Below, in pieces: positions 4,627 to 46,845 of a stretch of 64,000 bases of DNA. The DNA comes from a virus. Position 1 is the first letter of the stretch. Each line of letters begins with the position of its first letter. The stretch lies in the IMG/VR virus record IMGVR_UViG_3300010885_011653, positions 29,447 through 93,446 of that record; one strand, 5' to 3'. Under the pieces are notes generated by a model, which worked only from the letters and a program-made list of their open reading frames with translations, made no database searches and had not been told where the DNA came from. Position numbers and translations under genes: made by a program.

Positions 4627-5995
4627 AGTATTCGCATTCTTTCCAGAACTCTTTCATTTCTGGAAATGTTTTTAAAAAGTCGGTATCTCTGCGTTGATCG
4701 TGTTCGTGAAAGAAACGATAAAAATCAGCACGTTGTAGTTTAACATAATCAGGGTCTAAATTGCGACCTTCTTTCATCCAGTCTATATCCCTACGCATAC
4801 GCTGTATTTCGTAATCTTTAAAACCTTGAAATGGACGTTCTTCAGTTTCTAAATGTAATTCCATCCAGTCTGCTACACGTTCTAGTACACCAATGTAGAC
4901 TTCGGGCAGTATCTGTAAACTTTGCCAGGCTGGTTGTCTTAGTAAAGGAGTATCAAACCAAACACGTTGATATGTGCTACTGTACATTTTTCGTAAATCT
5001 AAAATCCATTCTAATTGTTGTTGTATGCCTAACACACTTAGATTATTCATTGTAATGATAAACGTAAGACTATTGCGATAGGGAATCTCATCTAAGAATC
5101 TATGCACTCGATCCCATACACGTCTGAAGTTTAATCCGTTGCGAATATACTCAGCATGTCTGGGATTTCCAGAATCTAAACTTACGTATTGCATAAAGTG
5201 TTCTATCTGTGTGCCGCATAATTCTTTAACATAACCCAGGTATTTTTCAAACAAAGGTTCTTCAACACTAAAGTTACTTGTTACATTTAAGTGTAGTTCG
5301 GGATTAGGCAATGCTAACACATAGTCAAATACTTTATAAGTATTCTTATCCATTAGCGGCTCGCCACCGGTCATGCGAAAATGTTTTAAGTGGGGATATA
5401 GTGTGGGCCACCATTCCCAGAATGCATCAACATATGGATTATCTTCTCTAGTAGGAATTGGTCTATTACGGCCAGTAAAATGGCTAGGATCATTGTGAAC
5501 AGTACTAGTAGGATAGCCACCCCAACGGTCAACCTCTTGTTGCCAGCTCGAGCTGAACTGTGGACTACAATAACTACATTTGAGATTACAAGCGTGATTA
5601 AAATTAACTTCAACATAACTAGGTACAACATCTTCATCTCCGGTACTATTCTGAATAGTATCAAAATCACTTGCAGCCCAGGGCTCACCTGAACGATAGT
5701 GTCTGTCGCTTAACTGTCCGTGTGCTTCTATATTCCAACAATAACTACATTCTGCGGGCTTTTCATTCTTAAGCATTATAACCCGTTGTTGTTTTTTATA
5801 TGCTGTATTATGTAGTGCGCCCGGATTGTCTTTAAGTGCATCTGCATCAATTGCGTGAAGTGGCGGGTGGTAGCAGGAGTTGTTTAGTCCTGTGGGCAAG
5901 TGTAAACTAACTTGTTTCCATTTAGCCAAACAAAGTGCAGGACCTAAGTTCGCCTTCATCCATTCAGCTGATGCCATAAAATCGCTTTTAGACAT
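4613..5995 (-). CDS. Radical SAM protein with N-terminal cysteine cluster (copy 1)
   Basis: A 460-residue protein, the first of the four radical-SAM genes in transcription order. The catalytic cysteines are C136/C140/C143 (CNLKCSYC) and GGEP is at 210-213. The N-terminal set is C22 (CLAKW), C41 (SCYHPPLH) and CSYCW at 83-87, matching copy 2. The segment just after the CxxxCxxC motif reads SPQFSSSW and is echoed in all four copies (GSWSSSKW, GPIFSSNW, NPAFSSTW), which supports common descent by duplication. The ATG overlaps the SGNH-like gene by 8 bases. Cytosolic; substrate unknown. Confidence 0.9.
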   Translation of the reverse strand: MSKSDFMASAEWMKANLGPALCLAKWKQVSLHLPTGLNNSCYHPPLHAIDADALKDNPGALHNTAYKKQQRVIMLKNEKPAECSYCWNIEAHGQLSDRHYRSGEPWAASDFDTIQNSTGDEDVVPSYVEVNFNHACNLKCSYCSPQFSSSWQQEVDRWGGYPTSTVHNDPSHFTGRNRPIPTREDNPYVDAFWEWWPTLYPHLKHFRMTGGEPLMDKNTYKVFDYVLALPNPELHLNVTSNFSVEEPLFEKYLGYVKELCGTQIEHFMQYVSLDSGNPRHAEYIRNGLNFRRVWDRVHRFLDEIPYRNSLTFIITMNNLSVLGIQQQLEWILDLRKMYSSTYQRVWFDTPLLRQPAWQSLQILPEVYIGVLERVADWMELHLETEERPFQGFKDYEIQRMRRDIDWMKEGRNLDPDYVKLQRADFYRFFHEHDQRRDTDFLKTFPEMKEFWKECEYYAKN

Positions 5996-6710
5996 AGCCT
6001 CTACTTTTTAATTCAGTGTATAAAAATTCTGCATACACAGTATAAGCCCACTCGTTTGGGTAATTAACGTTATCTGGGTCAGTCCATCCACGTTCTGTGG
6101 CCAAATCTATTAGATGTTGTTCTGTGTAGAATTGTGACCAATCGATTAATTGATATAAATTTTTATATCTATCGAATTTTTTTAATGTACCAGGGGTCAT
6201 GAAAAGATAGGGAATTTTCATTTCTTTAAGAACACCTTGTAAACTAACAACTCTAATTAGACTCTGTTGTACCAGCTCTGCATACTTTACTACACTAAAA
6301 TAATCCACAAACAACCGGCTAATAGTATCCAGCTCTTCTTTTGATTTTTTCTTTTTTCCAAAACTTTCTACCAGGTATCCTTGGCTACTGATCCAGTTTT
6401 CTGGAACATGATTATCTTGCGGCATTCCTTCGTGTATTCCTTTAAGATGATTGGAAGTCCAATAATTATTATCAAATTGGTCAATGCTACCAACTTGCCA
6501 GTCTGCACGTACCATTGTTTCCGGCCACATAACTAATACTAAATCAAATTTCTCTTTAGATAATTTTTCAACTGTACTTTCGTGTACGTAAGTGTATCCG
6601 GTGCCCGGACACGAAATATTGATTATTTCGCATTCCATTTTATTTTTAAGCTGGTTAGGCCAGGCGATAGGTTTAGCACTTATTGATGCGCCGTTAACTA
6701 GTATTTTCAT
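5988..6710 (-). CDS. SGNH-hydrolase-like protein
   Basis: A 240-residue protein beginning MKILVNGASIS, which fits block I of the SGNH/GDSL fold (small residue-x-Ser after a first beta strand). A PGTGYTY segment follows and suits the second oxyanion block. The C-terminal block, normally DxxH, reads YPNEWAYTVYAEFLY, so the catalytic histidine is not obvious. The protein may be a divergent esterase/acetyltransferase-like enzyme or a non-catalytic member. SGNH proteins commonly remove or add acyl groups on glycans, which would suit the neighbouring glycosyltransferases. ATGA overlap with the upstream gene. A distant relative lies at 42332-43054. Confidence 0.6.
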   Translation of the reverse strand: MKILVNGASISAKPIAWPNQLKNKMECEIINISCPGTGYTYVHESTVEKLSKEKFDLVLVMWPETMVRADWQVGSIDQFDNNYWTSNHLKGIHEGMPQDNHVPENWISSQGYLVESFGKKKKSKEELDTISRLFVDYFSVVKYAELVQQSLIRVVSLQGVLKEMKIPYLFMTPGTLKKFDRYKNLYQLIDWSQFYTEQHLIDLATERGWTDPDNVNYPNEWAYTVYAEFLYTELKSRGYV

Positions 6711-7600
6711 TCGCGTGTCATTGGTCCTTGATTTTTAAAATTGCTCTTATAGTGGTGTTTGAAAAACTTACTTTCTGCAGGTTTTATGTCCACAATAGGC
6801 AATCCCAATCGTATACGTAGTATGTCGCCTACATTGATACTTTGGTCTGTACCATCTTGTTTGAATGATTCCCACAATCGAGCCAGCACATCAAAATCTT
6901 GTACATCTTGATAATTCCACCCTTCCAGCATGATCATAAACGTTCCAAGGCGTGCGCCGTATATGGCCCACATGCCATTGTCAACATCTGCGCCTACACT
7001 TTGCCAAATACACAAGTGATCATAGTTGCGATTGTTCACACGGGTTTCAAATTCTTCTAGTGAGGGCTTATGTCCTCGATCCAAACACATCTTTACGCCT
7101 TCACGAAACCCGGCGCGCCATGCTTGAAAAGGGCTGGCGTTAGGATAAGTTGTACTGTAGCAATCATTCATAGCCCAGTAATTGGGATAAAAACAAAACT
7201 CTACATCATTGGCTTCACTGCCGTCACTATTCTCGTGAGTACGCATATTTCGTATAAATTCTTTTGTCCAACAACTCATACCACCATTGCCGTACATCAA
7301 TCCATTGATAATATTACGGCTGCGCCAACGAAACACACAATCGCTATTACTGCTATCCAGAGTAAGTTGTAAATTAAAAAATTCGGGATCAGGTATGTTA
7401 TCACCGTCAATAAGAATAAACCGCTCAGTATCACTTGCATCAGCCGCAGCCTTATGTGCCGCATCTGATCCCTTGACCCCGTCCACTCGCTTTGCCCAAG
7501 GCACCATGTTTTGAATTTTAATCCAAAATTCTTCTTTTTTAGGTTCATCATATGTTAAGTAAATGCAGTCTAAGTCTGCTACATCAATTATATCTGTCAT
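6707..7600 (-). CDS. GT-A-like glycosyltransferase (DGDN motif)
   Basis: A 297-residue protein with an N-terminal layout typical of GT-A nucleotide-sugar transferases: a first strand (DCIYLTYDEP), then GVKGSDAAHKAAADAS, then FILIDGDNIPDPEFF with a DxD-type metal-binding motif at D65-G66-D67. The family expectation is transfer of a sugar from a nucleotide donor, with Mn/Mg bound by the DxD. Acceptor unknown: candidates are tail-fibre or other virion proteins, phage DNA or host surface glycans. It overlaps the upstream gene by 17 bases and the downstream SGNH gene by 4, so all are co-translated. No transmembrane segment is visible. Confidence 0.7.
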   Translation of the reverse strand: MTDIIDVADLDCIYLTYDEPKKEEFWIKIQNMVPWAKRVDGVKGSDAAHKAAADASDTERFILIDGDNIPDPEFFNLQLTLDSSNSDCVFRWRSRNIINGLMYGNGGMSCWTKEFIRNMRTHENSDGSEANDVEFCFYPNYWAMNDCYSTTYPNASPFQAWRAGFREGVKMCLDRGHKPSLEEFETRVNNRNYDHLCIWQSVGADVDNGMWAIYGARLGTFMIMLEGWNYQDVQDFDVLARLWESFKQDGTDQSINVGDILRIRLGLPIVDIKPAESKFFKHHYKSNFKNQGPMTRE

Positions 7601-23600: not shown

Positions 23601-26600
23601 GATATATCCACAATCAGGTAAATCACCAATATACAAATTGTTTACACGATTATTATATAATTGAGTACTTGTTGTAGTCAGATTACTTGATGTATATATA
23701 TTTGACTGTACTAGATCAACTACAATATTACCAGTGCTGTAAGTATCAGCATAGGTAAATGCCACTGGGTTGGTCTTAAATGTACTTTGGTCTAATATAA
23801 ACTCTCTGTACTGATTGTTGTTTACATCTCCATATACACCAACGCGAAACGCCCATTCTTCGTAGGTACTAATTGTACTGTTAATGTTATTAAACTGTGC
23901 TTTGGTCAAAGCGTCTATAGCATTTTTTGTGCCTTTTTGTTTGATATATCCTTGATAGAATTTTGTCTGTGTCGGGATACTCATGCCTAAATCTGTCAAG
24001 TACGGACGTTCACGGAATCCAATCAGACCCGAACTAAACATTTGTACCTGCTCGTCGACTGGAGGATTGTCTATGTCATAGATATTAGTAAACATCTGTG
24101 CATTTGTACCCGGAGTAGGTAATAATCCTGTTTGTATAGAACTGTACGGAATCTCTGTCCATACTGTGATATTGAATGTTTCGCTGGCCAATACATCCAT
24201 GCTTGCAGTATAGTATGCATCATTATAAACAACAAGATCGCCCATGCGATAGTCTTGTCCTGGAATCCATGCATTAATATCCGGGTTACTATATATGTAC
24301 CCAGCTGGGCTAATTGCACCCGACCAAGCACCTGTTTTAAATCCCGAGACTTTTAATCTATATTGTCTTGCTCCTTGTTCGGGTATGTAAATTACATCGC
24401 CAAAATCATCAACATTGTCAAATATCAACGTGCTTTCATACTGAACAAAATTTAGTTTAACTAATCCAATTGTAGATCCATTGATAGTATCAAATTGAAA
24501 TCTATTTTCGCCAGGAAAATCAGTTCTTATAATATTAAAGTGCTGACTCTTAATAGGTACATAGTTTTGATCTAATACAATACCTTGCCCGGGCATGTTA
24601 CTAATTTCGTCAACGATTGAATCAGTAGAAGTAATAAACACTCGAGTTGACGCAGGAGTTAATACAAGAATAGTTCCAAGGTCCCAGCCTTGCTGTGCCC
24701 AGAATAAGAATTCTTTAATGCTTAGTCTAAAGTTTTTAGTTTCGCCGAGATCATCGTCAAATGTTTGAAATACAAAACCCTGCGCTACCAAATGACGTTC
24801 GTAACTAATTAAGAAATCGGCTATTTGTTGGGCTGTAGCAAAAGTAGTTCCGTATGGTATAGTAATAGACCGATTGCTACTGTCTTGATATATTTTTACA
24901 GCAAGATTGTCTACTTTAATTGTTTCTACTTTGTTGTTGGCAACACTAGGTAATATAGTAAAGAACGGATCTGTACTGTCATATCCCTTGACAGAATATC
25001 CAGATTCAGTTCTTTCAACAACAACAGCACTATATGTAATTGTGCGATTTGGCACAGGCTTACCAATATAAGTCTCATAATTAGAATCTGGTATTATAAC
25101 ACTAGAGTTTGTGGTACCCGGGCTAGTTTGTTCTGCACTTACGGTAATAAGTTTTTTATCTGTAAAGCCACTGCATCTATACGCCAACTGTACAGATAAA
25201 TTTTGATAATATGTGTTTAACTTAGTAACAGGATCAATACCGTAATTCTTAATAGAATCAGCAATCCAATTGGCATATCCGCTGGTACGCAATACAGTAC
25301 CAGTGGTAGTATCACCGTTGACTACCAATGCCGTTGGTGTAATTTTTTGATTGGTCGCACTAGAAAACTGTCCAGTAACTTCATTAAAATAAAATCTACT
25401 GGTATCCAATTGGCTAGCAAAATACTTTGCTGGTCTAGCCAGTGCTAATCCCTGTTGAACTGCAAAAGGAAAATCACTACTACGACGCCAGGCTGTTTCT
25501 GCAGGGCCTTGGTGACCTATTGCAAATTTGTTATCTATTGTACGATTACTGTATTCTTTAATAATCCCAATTGCTGTTGGGGGCAATAAATTACCAGCTG
25601 TATCTACAGGAATGAAATTGGTCAATCCGGGACGTGCAAATCTTGTATCGTAGTAGGCGGATCCGTTATTCCAAATATATCCAGCTTCAAGATCTTCCCA
25701 TAATGTAGCATTACCAGAAGTATATGGACTTGGACCATAACGATCTTGCCACCAACTCGGCTCATCGCTGATACCCAGCATACGCCACGGAAACAAATTA
25801 GGGCTTACTGTATCAAACCAGTGATTGTAAATTGCTCTCCAACTGCCTTGCAATTTTACACCATCTAATCCGGTAAATTGACTGTAATTCCAAGTCCATG
25901 GATCACCTGCATTAAACCAAGTATTAGATGCATAATCAACTTTATTTGATCCTACCCAATATAAGAAATTTTGACTTAATAATCTATTCCATTCGCCCGA
26001 ACTGTAATCCGTGGACCTAAACTGACCAGGAATAGTATCGTAAAGATCCAAAGTATTGTTAGTGTAATTGGCCTTAATGTTGTTGTATATGCGTAACTCA
26101 AGTTCCAGTAGGTATTGGTCTCTGAAGTCGCCGAACGCCGGGGTAATACTACCATCGTGTCCTCTGAGTACTTCTGTGGGAGTTAGGTATGTTGTATCTG
26201 TAAAAAGTTCAGGAGTAAACTTTGGATACAATCCCAACTTGGTTGGTGTTTCGGGAATAAAGTTTCCGTCTGTGTTGTAATAGTCACGTATCACAAGTAT
26301 GGTACCAATGCTTAACGGAGTCGTTAAAATAATAGAAGGAGCTAAGTTATTAAATTCGTAGTCAACTCCTTTGACCAATTGTGTTCCGTTTACATACACT
26401 AGAACTGCACGATTACTTAATTGTGTATCATCAAAAATTGAACTGATTTCATAATTGGTCTGTCTGGCATTAAGAACTGTATAAACTACTTCGTTGTATT
26501 CTGCCCCGTATGGAACCATATCGCTATAGTACCAAGGAAAATTAGAGTTCTTAACTGTGTTAATATTCTTTAAAATTATGTCAACACCGGCCGCAGGATC

Positions 26601-42335: not shown

Positions 42336-43054
42336 GAATATATGCTGTTGGATGCAGTACTACCATTGGAGAAGAGTTAACAGATCCTGTTAACACTTGC
42401 TATCCTGCTTTGATAGCACAACGCTTTGGTGCAGAGTTAACTAACGATGCACACTTTGGTGGTACTAATCAACGCACTACATATCGCACAATTAAACATA
42501 CGCAAGATGCGTATGATTTGTATTTGATTGCATGGTCCGCAGACAGTAGATTTACTTTTTACAAGTCAGATGACAATGAAGAAGTAAGTTTTGCACCTAA
42601 ACTTATTAACTACAAACACGATCAAGAAGATTACTATAAGATTTGGGGCAGAACACTATTCCAAGTTTGGTACAATAGGCTATATGGGTTCAAGCAATGG
42701 CTACAACAGATTATTCAGGTACAAACCATATTAGAGCAACAGGGTAAACAATACCTAATGTTGAATACTGTGCATAATAATTTAGATCGTTGGCTTAGTC
42801 CCAGAGAATCATTTTTAGATGTTGTCCAAAAACTGATTAATGTGTCGGCTATGAATGATAGTCAAATTGTTGCAGAGCACGAAGAAATACAGTATTATCT
42901 AAGTTTAATCAACACTGATAAATTTTATGGCTGGAATGAATTTGCCATTAGAGATTTAGACCATTTATTTCCGATGGGTCCAAAGAATCACATGCTTGAA
43001 GCAGGGCATCAACATTTAGCTAACTTACTTTATAACCATTTATGTTCCGTATAA
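42332..43054 (+). CDS. SGNH-hydrolase-like protein inserted between gp47 and gp46
   Basis: A 240-residue protein starting MRIYAVGCSTTIGEEL, which fits block I of SGNH enzymes with S9 as possible nucleophile. GGTNQRTTYR suits block II and the C-terminus (NHMLEAGHQHLANLLYNHL) looks like the block V helix with a conserved G-H. It overlaps gp47 by 4 bases and gp46 by 13, so it is co-translated with both nuclease subunits. It is a distant relative in fold of the 5988-6710 gene, but with better preserved histidines. Substrate unknown; a link to recombination is suggested only by position and could be that of a cargo gene. Confidence 0.6.
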   Translation: MRIYAVGCSTTIGEELTDPVNTCYPALIAQRFGAELTNDAHFGGTNQRTTYRTIKHTQDAYDLYLIAWSADSRFTFYKSDDNEEVSFAPKLINYKHDQEDYYKIWGRTLFQVWYNRLYGFKQWLQQIIQVQTILEQQGKQYLMLNTVHNNLDRWLSPRESFLDVVQKLINVSAMNDSQIVAEHEEIQYYLSLINTDKFYGWNEFAIRDLDHLFPMGPKNHMLEAGHQHLANLLYNHLCSV

Positions 43055-44811
43055 AAACACTAACCGTTAAAAACTTTATGAGTGTGGGTAATACTACTCA
43101 GGCCGTGGACTTTAACAGGCAAGACTTAACTTTAGTCTTAGGCGAAAACTTAGACTTGGGCGGAGACGACTCGGGTGCCCGTAATGGCACAGGTAAAACT
43201 ACCATTATCAATGCCCTGAGTTTTGCTATGTACGGTAATGCTCTTACTAATATTAAAAAAGATAACTTAATCAACAAGACCAATCAAAAGAATATGATGG
43301 TCACAATTGATTTTGAAAAGGACGGTATAGAGTACCGTATTGAGCGCGGACGTAAGCCGGGTATTATGAAATTCTTTGTTGGCGACGCAGAAAAAGAAAT
43401 TACAGACGATGCACAAGGCGACAGTAGAGAAACACAAGCAGAAATAGAACGTATGTTGGGTATGAGTCACGACATGTTCAAGCACATTGTTGCGCTTAAC
43501 ACTTATACAGAACCGTTCTTAGCCTTACGTGCTAATGACCAGCGCACTATTATTGAGCAATTACTTGGTATTACCTTGCTAAGTGAAAAGGCCGATAGAT
43601 TAAAAGAAATTAACAAAACTACCAAAGACGCTATCACCCAGGAAGAGTTTCGTATTAAGGCTGTAGGCGATGCCAACAAGCGCATCGAAGAACAGATTGA
43701 AGCACTTAAACGTAGACAAACCTTATGGATTAACAAACATGGAGAAGACCTTGAAAAGTTACAAGCCGCTCTCAGTGAGCTACAGCAAATTGATATTGAT
43801 GCAGAAATTGGGGCACACAAGGCTCTTGCTGAATATAAGCAAAAGAAGAAAGATATCACTGATCTATCATCCCATATTTCACGAGCCGAACAGGACCAAG
43901 TACGTGAAGTTAAACTTATTGAAAAGCTCAAGAAAGACATCGCCGCGCTCGAAGACCATAAGTGTCACTCCTGTGGGCAGGAATTGCATGACGACAAGCA
44001 CGAGTCTAATTTAGAAAGCAAGAAAAAAGAGCTACAAGAAGCCGCGCTACAAGCGTTGGCTACTAACAGTCAATGGATCGAGCTTACTGGTGGATTAAAA
44101 GAACTAGGAGAGTTAGGCATTAAACCTGACACATTCTACGAAAAAGAAGAAGATGCAATTCATCATCGCAGTACATTGGCCAGTTTACAGCAACAAATTG
44201 AAACCAAAGCCGCAGACGCAGATCCCTATGCAGAACAAATTGTAGAAATGCAAGAGCAAGGTGTAGAAGAAATTGACTATGATATTATGAATGAACTGGT
44301 TAACTTACGTGAGCATCAAGACTTCTTGCTTAAATTATTAACTAACAAAGACAGCTTTATACGTAAACGTATTATTGATCAAAACCTAAGCTACTTAAAC
44401 GCCAGGTTAGGACAATATTTAGATCGCATTGGCTTGCCGCATACTGTAAAGTTTAACAATGACTTGTCGGTGAGTATTACTGAGCTAGGCAGAGATTTAG
44501 ACTTTGATAACTTGAGCCGCGGTGAACGTAATCGTGTTATCTTAAGTCTGAGTTGGGCGTTCCGTGATGTATGGGAAAGTTTATACCAACCAATTAACTT
44601 ATTGTTCATTGACGAAATGATTGATTCAGGTATGGACAGTTCGGGTGTAGAAAATGCTTTGAGTATACTTAAAAAGATGTCCAGAGAAAGCAATAAGAGT
44701 GTTTGGCTGGTGTCACACAAAGATGAATTGGCCGGACGAGTTAACAACACGCTTCACGTAGTCAAAGAAAATGGTTTCACAAGTTACAACACGGACATAG
44801 AAATTGCATAA
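43042..44811 (+). CDS. 46: Recombination endonuclease subunit gp46-like (Rad50 type)
   Basis: A 589-residue SMC/Rad50-like ATPase, partner of gp47. The N-terminus has the strand MFRIKTLTVKNFMSVG and Walker A G45-ARNGTGKTT. Two coiled-coil arms flank a zinc hook CHSC (C308/C311), through which Rad50 dimers join. The C-terminal ATPase half has the signature LSRGERNRVILSLSWAF and Walker B NLLFIDEMIDSGMD. Its length matches T4 gp46 (560). It is translationally coupled to the SGNH-like gene by a 13-base overlap. Confidence 0.95.
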   Translation: MFRIKTLTVKNFMSVGNTTQAVDFNRQDLTLVLGENLDLGGDDSGARNGTGKTTIINALSFAMYGNALTNIKKDNLINKTNQKNMMVTIDFEKDGIEYRIERGRKPGIMKFFVGDAEKEITDDAQGDSRETQAEIERMLGMSHDMFKHIVALNTYTEPFLALRANDQRTIIEQLLGITLLSEKADRLKEINKTTKDAITQEEFRIKAVGDANKRIEEQIEALKRRQTLWINKHGEDLEKLQAALSELQQIDIDAEIGAHKALAEYKQKKKDITDLSSHISRAEQDQVREVKLIEKLKKDIAALEDHKCHSCGQELHDDKHESNLESKKKELQEAALQALATNSQWIELTGGLKELGELGIKPDTFYEKEEDAIHHRSTLASLQQQIETKAADADPYAEQIVEMQEQGVEEIDYDIMNELVNLREHQDFLLKLLTNKDSFIRKRIIDQNLSYLNARLGQYLDRIGLPHTVKFNNDLSVSITELGRDLDFDNLSRGERNRVILSLSWAFRDVWESLYQPINLLFIDEMIDSGMDSSGVENALSILKKMSRESNKSVWLVSHKDELAGRVNNTLHVVKENGFTSYNTDIEIA

Positions 44812-44859: not shown

Positions 44860-45288
44860 ATGACCTGGCTTTTCGAAAATTCCTCTGTGGAAACACTACC
44901 CGAAGACTGTGTTGGATTCGTTTATTTGATTACTAATAAACTGTCCGGCAGGAAGTATATTGGAAAAAAGTTAGCAAAATTTAGTAAAACTAGTTATCGT
45001 GTGGTAAAATTAAAGAACGGTAACAAGAAGAAAAAAAAGATTAGAAGTAAAATAGATTCAGATTGGCAAGAATATTATGGCTCTAGTCCAGAGTTAACTC
45101 GAGATGTAGCAGCACTGGGCATAGAAAATTTTACAAGAGAAATACTTTATTACTGTCAATCAAAATCAGAATGTAGTTATATAGAAGCAAGAGAACAATT
45201 TTCACGCAAAGTGTTAGAAACAGACGAATACTATAACGGACACATACAGGTCCGTGTACATGGCTCACACATTATCAACAAGATTTAA
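44860..45288 (+). CDS. GIY-YIG endonuclease (Seg-like)
   Basis: A 142-residue protein with the GIY-YIG core at residues 20-37 (FVYLITNKLSGRKYIGKK), followed by a lysine-rich insertion (KNGNKKKKKIRSK) and the catalytic-helix region (REILYYCQSKSECSYIEARE), where E is the usual metal ligand. Such small nucleases occur in T4-like phages as free-standing homing endonucleases (seg genes) or repair nucleases. The last codon and stop overlap the first arm of the RNA structure proposed at 45285-45790, and homing nucleases are often found beside structured RNAs. A weak -10-like GATAAT (44845-44850) is upstream. Confidence 0.8.
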   Translation: MTWLFENSSVETLPEDCVGFVYLITNKLSGRKYIGKKLAKFSKTSYRVVKLKNGNKKKKKIRSKIDSDWQEYYGSSPELTRDVAALGIENFTREILYYCQSKSECSYIEAREQFSRKVLETDEYYNGHIQVRVHGSHIINKI

Positions 45289-45790
45289 TCTTCAGACACT
45301 AAGTCTAACCGCAGTAAATCACATCAACAGTATATAGGCTAGCGCAGGCTAAACATCATGCGCCTATGAAAACCGGCTTAATGGCACGGGGACAGAAGAC
45401 TCACCGCTGTAGTGAGCACTCAATCAGTATCCTTAATAGGACCAAGATCACTAATTGCCGTGGTTTGATTGTTTGAAGATTAATTTAAGGCTAAAAAGAC
45501 GTGCTAGCGATAGCACACGGTCGATGTGTATGTTAGCATGTACGTATTGATCCGCCGTTGTATAAAGACGCAACTCGAGGTACCGGACAACCGCCTCTGT
45601 AATGTTGTAATGCTAAGTGACTGTGCTACTCGGATGATGACATAGTTCTATTCTTTGCCCTGTGCGGGCAAAGTGTGACCAATTAATCTGGATGATAACT
45701 TAAAAACAGCATTATGTCTTTAATACTTTTAGAAGAAGAAAACGATCTATGAGCGCAAGCGAAATAGATAGATATGCGTAGCATATCTTA
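45285..45790 (+). ncRNA. Candidate large structured RNA, about 500 nt
   Basis: No credible gene lies between 45289 and 45787, the only gap over 300 bases in the window. It contains many complementary segments on the plus strand. A 14-bp helix with one G-U pair joins 45285-45298 to 45470-45483. Hairpins include CTCAC/GTGAG (45400-45416), GTGCTA/TAGCAC capped by the GNRA loop GCGA (45501-45516), GAGGT/GCCTC (45577-45597), CTTTGCCC/GGGCAAAG (45653-45673), and near 45745-45770 an ATCTAT/ATAGAT stem enclosing tandem G-A and a GCAA tetraloop. The terminal perfect hairpin 45770-45788 could close it. GNRA loops appear only when read on the plus strand. It resembles ornate phage RNAs such as GOLLD or ROOL in general style; I cannot confirm identity. 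Confidence 0.55.
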
Positions 45791-46011: not shown

Positions 46012-46845
46012 TTACACGAAAAAACGCGACTGCTCAAATAAGAAAGGACTTTTGAATTCTTTAGCGCATTCTGTATTTTCGCACGTGGTAGTCACTGACA
46101 GGCTACTATCTTCACTCATTTTATCCATGCGCTTTTTAAGCCCGTCCCAAATACTTCTATCACAATTGGTTAAGAATTCTGCAATAAAAACACTATTATC
46201 AACTATAGTACCATCTTCTAAAGTAATAGATTCTATACTCTTGGAAACTTGACTGATACCTAGGTCAACAATTTTATTAAACATTTCATTAAATTTAACA
46301 ACTTTGGTATTTTCGTCGAGAGTTTCGTCTGACACTACCTGCATAATACGTTGTTGTTCGTAGTTTAGTAAATTATTTTTATTAAATTCTTCAAATGTTT
46401 GGGGGCGCAACTTAATAGTAAGGTTGTTTAAGACAGCCGGTGTTTCCCAGTCGGCAATATGTAGTCTATCTAACATAACTGTTAAATCTATTGCATGTTC
46501 GTTTTTAGTACTGCAATGCGGGCAAACAGTAGTAAACTCCATTTCCTTGCTGTAAGACGCAATTCTAATAGATATTAGTAAAGCGTCTAGATCAACTATG
46601 GGCATTTTCCACGCATTTTTAATAGCAGGACAACAGCTTTCTATTAGATTTACAGTACTAGCACCGTTGAGTAAGGCATCTGGTGTTTTCATGGTAATTT
46701 CATCTTTGGCGGTCATGGCATAAATTGGCACTTCACCGGTTACTGGTATTTCAACATTGCCAGTGGGATACCACCTGCCTTCACTGGGTAATTTTATATA
46801 CAAAATAGGTTGTCTGAAATATTTGCTTAATGGGTTTTGAGTCAT
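46012..46845 (-). CDS. 26: Baseplate hub subunit gp26-like
   Basis: A 277-residue protein of the T4 baseplate gp26 family (PF12322 type). Recognisable segments are LPSEGRWYPTGNVEIPVTGE, VPIYAMTAKDEITMKTPDAL, LNGASTVNLIESCCPAIKNAW and DALLISIRIASYSKEMEF. Two cysteine pairs (CPHC and CENTEC, the latter near the C-terminus) could bind zinc. In T4 gp26 is needed for hub assembly. It is expressed divergently from the tape-measure-like gene; the 61-base divergent gap has a CATAAATAG late motif for the plus strand only. Confidence 0.85.
   Translation of the reverse strand: MTQNPLSKYFRQPILYIKLPSEGRWYPTGNVEIPVTGEVPIYAMTAKDEITMKTPDALLNGASTVNLIESCCPAIKNAWKMPIVDLDALLISIRIASYSKEMEFTTVCPHCSTKNEHAIDLTVMLDRLHIADWETPAVLNNLTIKLRPQTFEEFNKNNLLNYEQQRIMQVVSDETLDENTKVVKFNEMFNKIVDLGISQVSKSIESITLEDGTIVDNSVFIAEFLTNCDRSIWDGLKKRMDKMSEDSSLSVTTTCENTECAKEFKSPFLFEQSRFFV

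Follow-up and report, generated by a model that had tools for sequence, protein, structure and literature searches.

Among the RNAs described so far, those that come closest to the one reported here are two catalogued motifs, Polynucleobacter-1 (RF01718) and cow-rumen-2 (RF02947), the phage-borne RNAs GOLLD and ROOL, to which no function has been assigned, and the C4/CI antisense RNAs of the P1 and P4 phages, whose short repeated words base-pair with a single partner strand. Polynucleobacter-1 is entered in the table of Weinberg et al. (2010) as RNA 'y', cis-regulatory 'y' and 'Burkholderiales, fresh water/estuary' (PMC2864571), that is, as a probably cis-regulatory element. As for large ornate RNAs, three have been solved by cryo-EM, and all of them are homo-oligomers (PMC12286853).

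Here we analysed a window of 64,000 nucleotides, which takes up positions 29447-93446 in a viral contig of 93,446 bases. It is practically certain, in our judgement, that this stretch encodes a folded RNA of about 370 bases which belongs to many uncultured freshwater phages; in the window, the RNA sits in a large T4-like phage. The initial annotation, made from the letters of the window alone, had seen in it a large, dense structured RNA that recalls GOLLD and ROOL. The structured RNA is borne out by strong covariation across 77-119 non-redundant relatives. The resemblance holds in that all of these RNAs are large, pseudoknotted and phage-borne, but with its roughly 370 nt the window RNA has no sequence or structure match to GOLLD or ROOL in Rfam, and it is not linked to tRNA genes in the loci seen.

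The locus and the extent of the RNA

The region 45285-45790 was described as the only large gene-free stretch, and indeed no other gap in the 93-kb contig exceeds 250 bp once the apparent gaps due to a single large ORF, open where the contig ends, are set aside. As proposed, the plus strand is the sense strand, and the region lies downstream of a GIY-YIG nuclease gene, which is of the SegE type (44860-45288, plus strand; Pfam PF19835 SegE_GIY-YIG, E=2.9e-32). Upstream of segE stands the gene of a gp46/SbcC-like recombination nuclease subunit (43042-44811, plus strand; phrog_77, E=2.8e-103; Pfam AAA_23), and downstream, in convergent orientation, that of a gp26-like T4 baseplate hub protein (46012-46845, minus strand; PF12322, E=3.5e-14; phrog_150). 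ARAGORN found no tRNA or tmRNA genes in the window. Two hairpins, GAGCGCAAGCGAA and AGATATGC-GTA-GCATATCT, lie 3' of the RNA at 45746-45788, and a GAGCG..AAGCGAA motif is seen 3' of the RNA in many relatives.

Comparison supports an RNA of approximately 372 nt on the plus strand, at 45327-45698 with approximate ends (alignment A1, 91 pairs in 20 helices; mutual information, MI, with APC). Its 5' domain (45337-45474, plus strand) is a Polynucleobacter-1 RNA, matched over model positions 1-141 of 141 with 96.9 bits, 60 bits above the gathering threshold of 37, and likewise of freshwater origin. A search of the whole contig hit the same locus, and 14 control genomes gave no RF01718 matches. None of the consensus pairs is broken in the window, and the consensus helices covary in 77 relatives. 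The statement that no known conserved sequence is present therefore fails for the 5' third. The idea of a new class was half right, for this third already stands in Rfam, and the full-length RNA, its residence in phages, its likely kinship with cow-rumen-2 and its paired boxes (two short identical words near the 3' end) go beyond both the Rfam entry and the open-licence literature (PMC2864571). The cmsearch against Rfam that had been suggested thus returned a strong match to a known motif, with no match at the window for GOLLD, ROOL, HEARO, group I, tmRNA or RNase P; with the covariance models of GOLLD and ROOL there was none at gathering over the window and none at E<=5 over the region. The Rfam model of Polynucleobacter-1 ends too early: it covers only the 5' 141 positions of an RNA whose conserved structure continues to about 45698, and it misses the upstream strand of the first pseudoknot, the pseudoknot between loop and linker, the boxes and the central domain.

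A SegE-like ORF lies immediately 5' of the RNA in 103 of the 112 relatives with a readable upstream ORF, and its stop falls mostly -15 to +13 nt from the first pseudoknot strand, so that segE abuts or overlaps the RNA and leaves no space for a separate intergenic promoter. Most probably, the RNA would arise either as the 3'-terminal part of a segE transcript or by transcription from a promoter within segE. The nearest downstream ORF lies on the minus strand in 45 relatives and on the plus strand in 43, and this even distribution argues against a 5' UTR element and against the cis-regulatory label of 2010. The members examined here are not consistently upstream of a gene, nor do they hold the constant place before same-strand genes that would mark a riboswitch or another 5' UTR regulator. 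One might instead think of a cis-acting element of the segE mRNA 3' UTR, concerned with stability, processing or termination and with no role in trans, since most freshwater relatives have the RNA where segE stops. We regard this as quite unlikely: the RNA is far more elaborate than a terminator, no T-rich plus-strand terminator was found at the window copy, and the rumen relatives, as well as all four copies in G007, a huge phage of 327 kb, adjoin other genes.

Fold, covariation and pseudoknots

Folded as a single sequence, the region 45285-45790 reached z = -3.2, a value that none of 100 shuffles equalled; for the 3' half by itself, z was an unconvincing -1.4, and the claim is therefore carried by comparative evidence. 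MI calculated on 119 non-redundant sequences (effective number 91) ranked the helix pairs at the top, and the pseudoknots emerged from it as well. In a separate alignment of 77 sequences, the 91 pairs in 20 helices showed 91.5% standard pairing, and the covariation check that had been called for came out clearly positive, with two-sided changes at 71 pairs in 983 cells against a shuffled mean of 283 (0/500 as high). The covariation score was 0.415, versus 0.06-0.08 when the partners were slid by 1-3 columns, a very large margin, even though this control is generous to the structure, which was partly picked from an overlapping alignment.

Five of the helices are pseudoknots, which draw the 5' domain and the central domain together into one compact body, their pairing being shown by covariation. 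The first (helix 1, plus strand) joins ACAG at 45327-45330 to the hairpin loop CTGT at 45407-45410, reads GCGG/CCGC in other members, and is 91.8% paired with two-sided changes at all 4 pairs; the second (helix 2, 45337-45339/45348-45350, plus strand) lies inside the 5' domain. The weakest (helix 12, plus strand), in which the hairpin-loop bases 45457-45459 pair with 45489-45491, is 83.8% paired (MI 0.31 and 0.26) and joins the 5' domain to bases beyond the 3' end of the Rfam model. It is followed on the plus strand by a hairpin at 45501-45516 (helices 13-14) with a GCGA loop in the window, whose stem and loop length vary in relatives, and by a long hairpin at 45519-45552 (helices 15 and 16). 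The loop of the latter provides the pairing of TTAGCAT (45533-45539) with ATGCTAA (45610-45616) that had been predicted from the letters, and this is a true pseudoknot, 94.8% paired, in which each of the 7 pairs shows changes on both sides. The central core (45557-45607, plus strand; helices 17-19, 99-100% paired) comprises the helix 45571-45574/45604-45607, the GAGGTACCGGACAACCGCCTC hairpin and the pseudoknot 45557-45561/45587-45591.

Two further features proposed at the outset survive in part. GNRA loops are fewer than claimed, namely the GCGA of 45501-45516 and a GCAA in the downstream hairpin. The long-range 14-bp helix of the minimum free energy fold, whose 5' strand (45285-45298, plus strand) overlaps the segE stop and whose partner is 45471-45484, is real for the window and three close relatives (L004, L105 and L149, at 81-82% identity), which keep it with compensating base changes. 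As a feature of the wider family it was rejected, for its own pairing beats all swapped partners in only these 4 of the 30 nearest sequences.

Two other pairs of positions stood out. Columns 45430 and 45442, inside a small hairpin, show a perfect exchange of U/C for C/U (67 vs 52 of 119 sequences) that is not Watson-Crick. Columns 45564 and 45670 share one base (A, T or G) in 100 of the 119 sequences, as though CTTx at 45653-45656 had a choice between two xAAG partners, which hints at a possible switch.

Relatives in freshwater and rumen phages

Sequence searches covered IMG/VR, GTDB and INPHARED, the scan of the genome collection being made with a single pattern. A pattern of the 5' domain matched 53 IMG/VR stretches, nearly all of which, judged by eye, remain conserved well past the 3' end of the Rfam model; three pattern matches (L039, L043 and L045) were discarded as chance hits without the RNA. 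A pattern of the 3' part gave at least 120 IMG/VR matches. Homologous intergenic regions in related phages, one of the checks proposed, were indeed found: with a profile from 108 sequences the locus was at least partly present in 65 of 80 gp46-anchored loci, where some of the matches cover the segE end only and many of the misses are incomplete contigs. Nearly every member examined lies in a viral contig, with segE as the 5' neighbour in the freshwater clade. The genome-collection scan yielded one real relative on a small contig of a Bacteroidetes MAG (L375), which is possibly a phage contig.

Several observations concern the contigs themselves. Many of them (L005, L006, L019, L026, L028, L046, L137, L153 and others) stop in or near the RNA, as assemblies do at sequences common to many genomes. 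Two relatives, G003 (80644-80977) and G005 (24515-24845), carry tmRNAs with an ARAGORN asterisk, which we take to denote the permuted form, together with 25-28 tRNAs; a permuted tmRNA would fit betaproteobacterial hosts.

Among cultured phages, blastn with two freshwater representatives, one from the 327-kb phage and two from the rumen gave no convincing match, and R1, a covariance model built on the freshwater core, had no hits in PA5oct, Phosso or Atu_ph07. Between gp46 and the hub gene, the cultured phages nearest by gp46 likewise possess a stretch, roughly 1 kb long, with few annotated genes or none (L376 at approximately 5840-6760, that is, PA5oct 75839-76759; L377 at approximately 5760-6770, Sinorhizobium phage Phosso). 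Both stretches have extensive predicted folding and contain GGTGAAC, closely followed by GGGCATT, and PA5oct holds two more partial copies (at 12.9 kb and 246 kb); neither stretch matched R1 or RF01718.

We consider it probable, if not proven, that the freshwater RNA is kin to cow-rumen-2. The two have in common, in the same order, a long hairpin, CCGCC, a small helix closing an ACaGGAuGACC hairpin, and GUAA; paired boxes are present in most rumen RNAs in which the boxes can be read, and some of the rumen copies stand beside gp26-like (L287, L256, L260) or gp46/gp47-like (L288) genes, as judged by eye from the first residues rather than by profile. R1 recovered 18 of the 45 rumen loci along its entire length, with weak E values of 0.002-0.4. 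The four RNA copies of G007 match RF01718 and R1 alike, and strongly. On the other side, the rumen RNAs differ in a 5' part that RF01718 does not see (nothing was found in the rumen contigs) and in their number, several to a genome in the huge phages of the rumen. RF02947 itself, aligned over the whole model, scored 21.1 bits at 45520-45619 (E=0.23 over 701 bases), under the cut-off of 66, and we therefore do not count the window RNA among its members; nor did it match any other freshwater locus that was scanned. Taken together, it is probable that Polynucleobacter-1 and, less certainly, cow-rumen-2, both of them orphan motifs, each represent a piece of a single class of large phage RNA. One rumen contig of 415,750 bases contains several copies (L279, L287, L288 and L291), and its boxes read CAGAT twice in three copies and CAGGT twice in one.

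Twin words near the 3' end

Two copies of the word GGATGAT occupy fixed alignment columns on the plus strand, box 1 at 45632-45638 after CTC and box 2 at 45690-45696 after TCT, with the hairpin CTTTGCCC-TGTGC-GGGCAAAG (45653-45673, plus strand; helix 20) between them. Box 1 equals box 2 at positions 1-5 and 7 in 118-119 of 119 aligned RNAs, and this at a word of which four positions vary freely (column pairs 45632/45690, 45633/45691, 45636/45694 and 45638/45696). When the tree was made from the RNA with its boxes masked out, the changes at these pairs numbered 20/21, 6/6, 11/11 and 12/12, respectively, and coincided, and the whole word was seen to change no fewer than 40 times; other variable column pairs of the same spacing, used as a control, change independently. 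The argument uses the fixed columns in place of an earlier box identity of 169/170, which came from choosing the best-matching pair. Diverged relatives retain twin words with new letters, e.g., AGACGAA twice in L131, and most rumen RNAs with readable box positions have a repeated word at the same place (L259, L277 and L383 show no clear pair). In G007, TGCAG stands twice in one copy and CGCAG twice in each of three; since the copies differ in word, the matching is kept within the molecule, even between copies sharing any genome-wide partner. This counts against a shared partner, though a wobble-tolerant one could still serve all four. All full-length freshwater words hold TRA at positions 4-6, and a reading of the boxes as a sense plus stop codon was discarded in view of the L131 word and of rumen words without TRA.

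Identical words cannot pair together, and a shared partner is therefore the simplest reading. A complement to the boxes was sought inside the RNA, where no third column of the 119-sequence alignment covaries with them; within 1.5 kb, where the own complement was no commoner than swapped words; and in six large genomes, some of which are incomplete, where no enrichment was seen. A 16-nt match in G005 was rejected as a partner in trans, for it falls within a gene for a structural protein, and the corresponding site in G010 fails to covary. The C4/CI antisense RNAs set a precedent for repeated words, but they have a complementary strand, none being found for the present boxes, and the structure and genes of the window RNA are unrelated to theirs.

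On balance, the explanation that we favour overall, and hold to be probable, is that of a phage RNA of about 370 nt of which the Rfam motifs are fragments and which may serve as a twin-word scaffold or decoy. Its compact pseudoknotted body would present two copies of one 7-nt word near the 3' end, placed before and after one hairpin (the 3' hairpin), and this trans-acting scaffold or decoy may grip one partner via both words, the partner being either an RNA or a sequence-specific RNA-binding protein, from the phage or the host. The mechanism with a twin-site partner, which we infer from the matched words, is in itself tentative, and with the same reserve, short of even confidence, we suggest that a widespread phage RNA class may be a bivalent device with two fast-changing, single-stranded words matched within the molecule.

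Instead of gripping a foreign partner, the RNA could assemble with itself into an RNA-only homo-oligomer, a cage or ring like ROOL, GOLLD and OLE, with the boxes as subunit contacts. Its phage residence, its compact fold with several pseudoknots and the precedent of the ornate RNAs solved by cryo-EM (PMC12286853) speak for such an assembly, which we nonetheless deem unlikely, because the RNA is shorter than those three and matches none of them in Rfam, and because the words are not mutually complementary and no complement was found inside the RNA. Contact between the boxes themselves, e.g., in a parallel like-base duplex, or their alternation on one strand as a switch, would agree with a coupling that matches each position of one box with its counterpart in the other, read in the same direction, inside a single molecule; yet parallel duplexes of mixed like-base pairs are rare and no third column covaries with the boxes, which makes this highly improbable.

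Short direct repeats around a hairpin, coupled per locus and also between copies within one genome, could equally act in DNA, as protein sites, as an origin, or as a recombination site overlapping the RNA gene. Such a role is very unlikely to our mind, as the own word is not enriched elsewhere or upstream of genes, the fixed differences are interleaved with the matched box positions, a pattern that simple gene conversion would not give, and the RNA lies at no GC-skew extreme in those genomes where it is well inside the contig. A replication origin was dismissed on the last ground, and promoter elements on the lack of enrichment of the own words upstream of genes; promoter-like matches on the minus strand were no more than expected by chance. 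Finally, repeated modules that end in the same word might suggest the antitoxin RNA of a type III toxin-antitoxin system, with the boxes as cutting sites whose specificity could drift with the nuclease. The neighbours are gp46, SegE and gp26, however, and two imperfect modules are not an array of pseudoknot repeats, so that we find this scarcely credible.

The scaffold or decoy reading lends itself to experiment. Covariation of two separated words in the same direction is rare and provides a sharp handle: a binder of one box would be expected to bind the other, and a single swap to break function, which a double swap would restore only if the partner allows. More broadly, two motifs catalogued as unrelated appear to be pieces of one RNA that extends from freshwater phages to the huge phages of the rumen, and corrected model boundaries would lead to better annotation of viral metagenomes.
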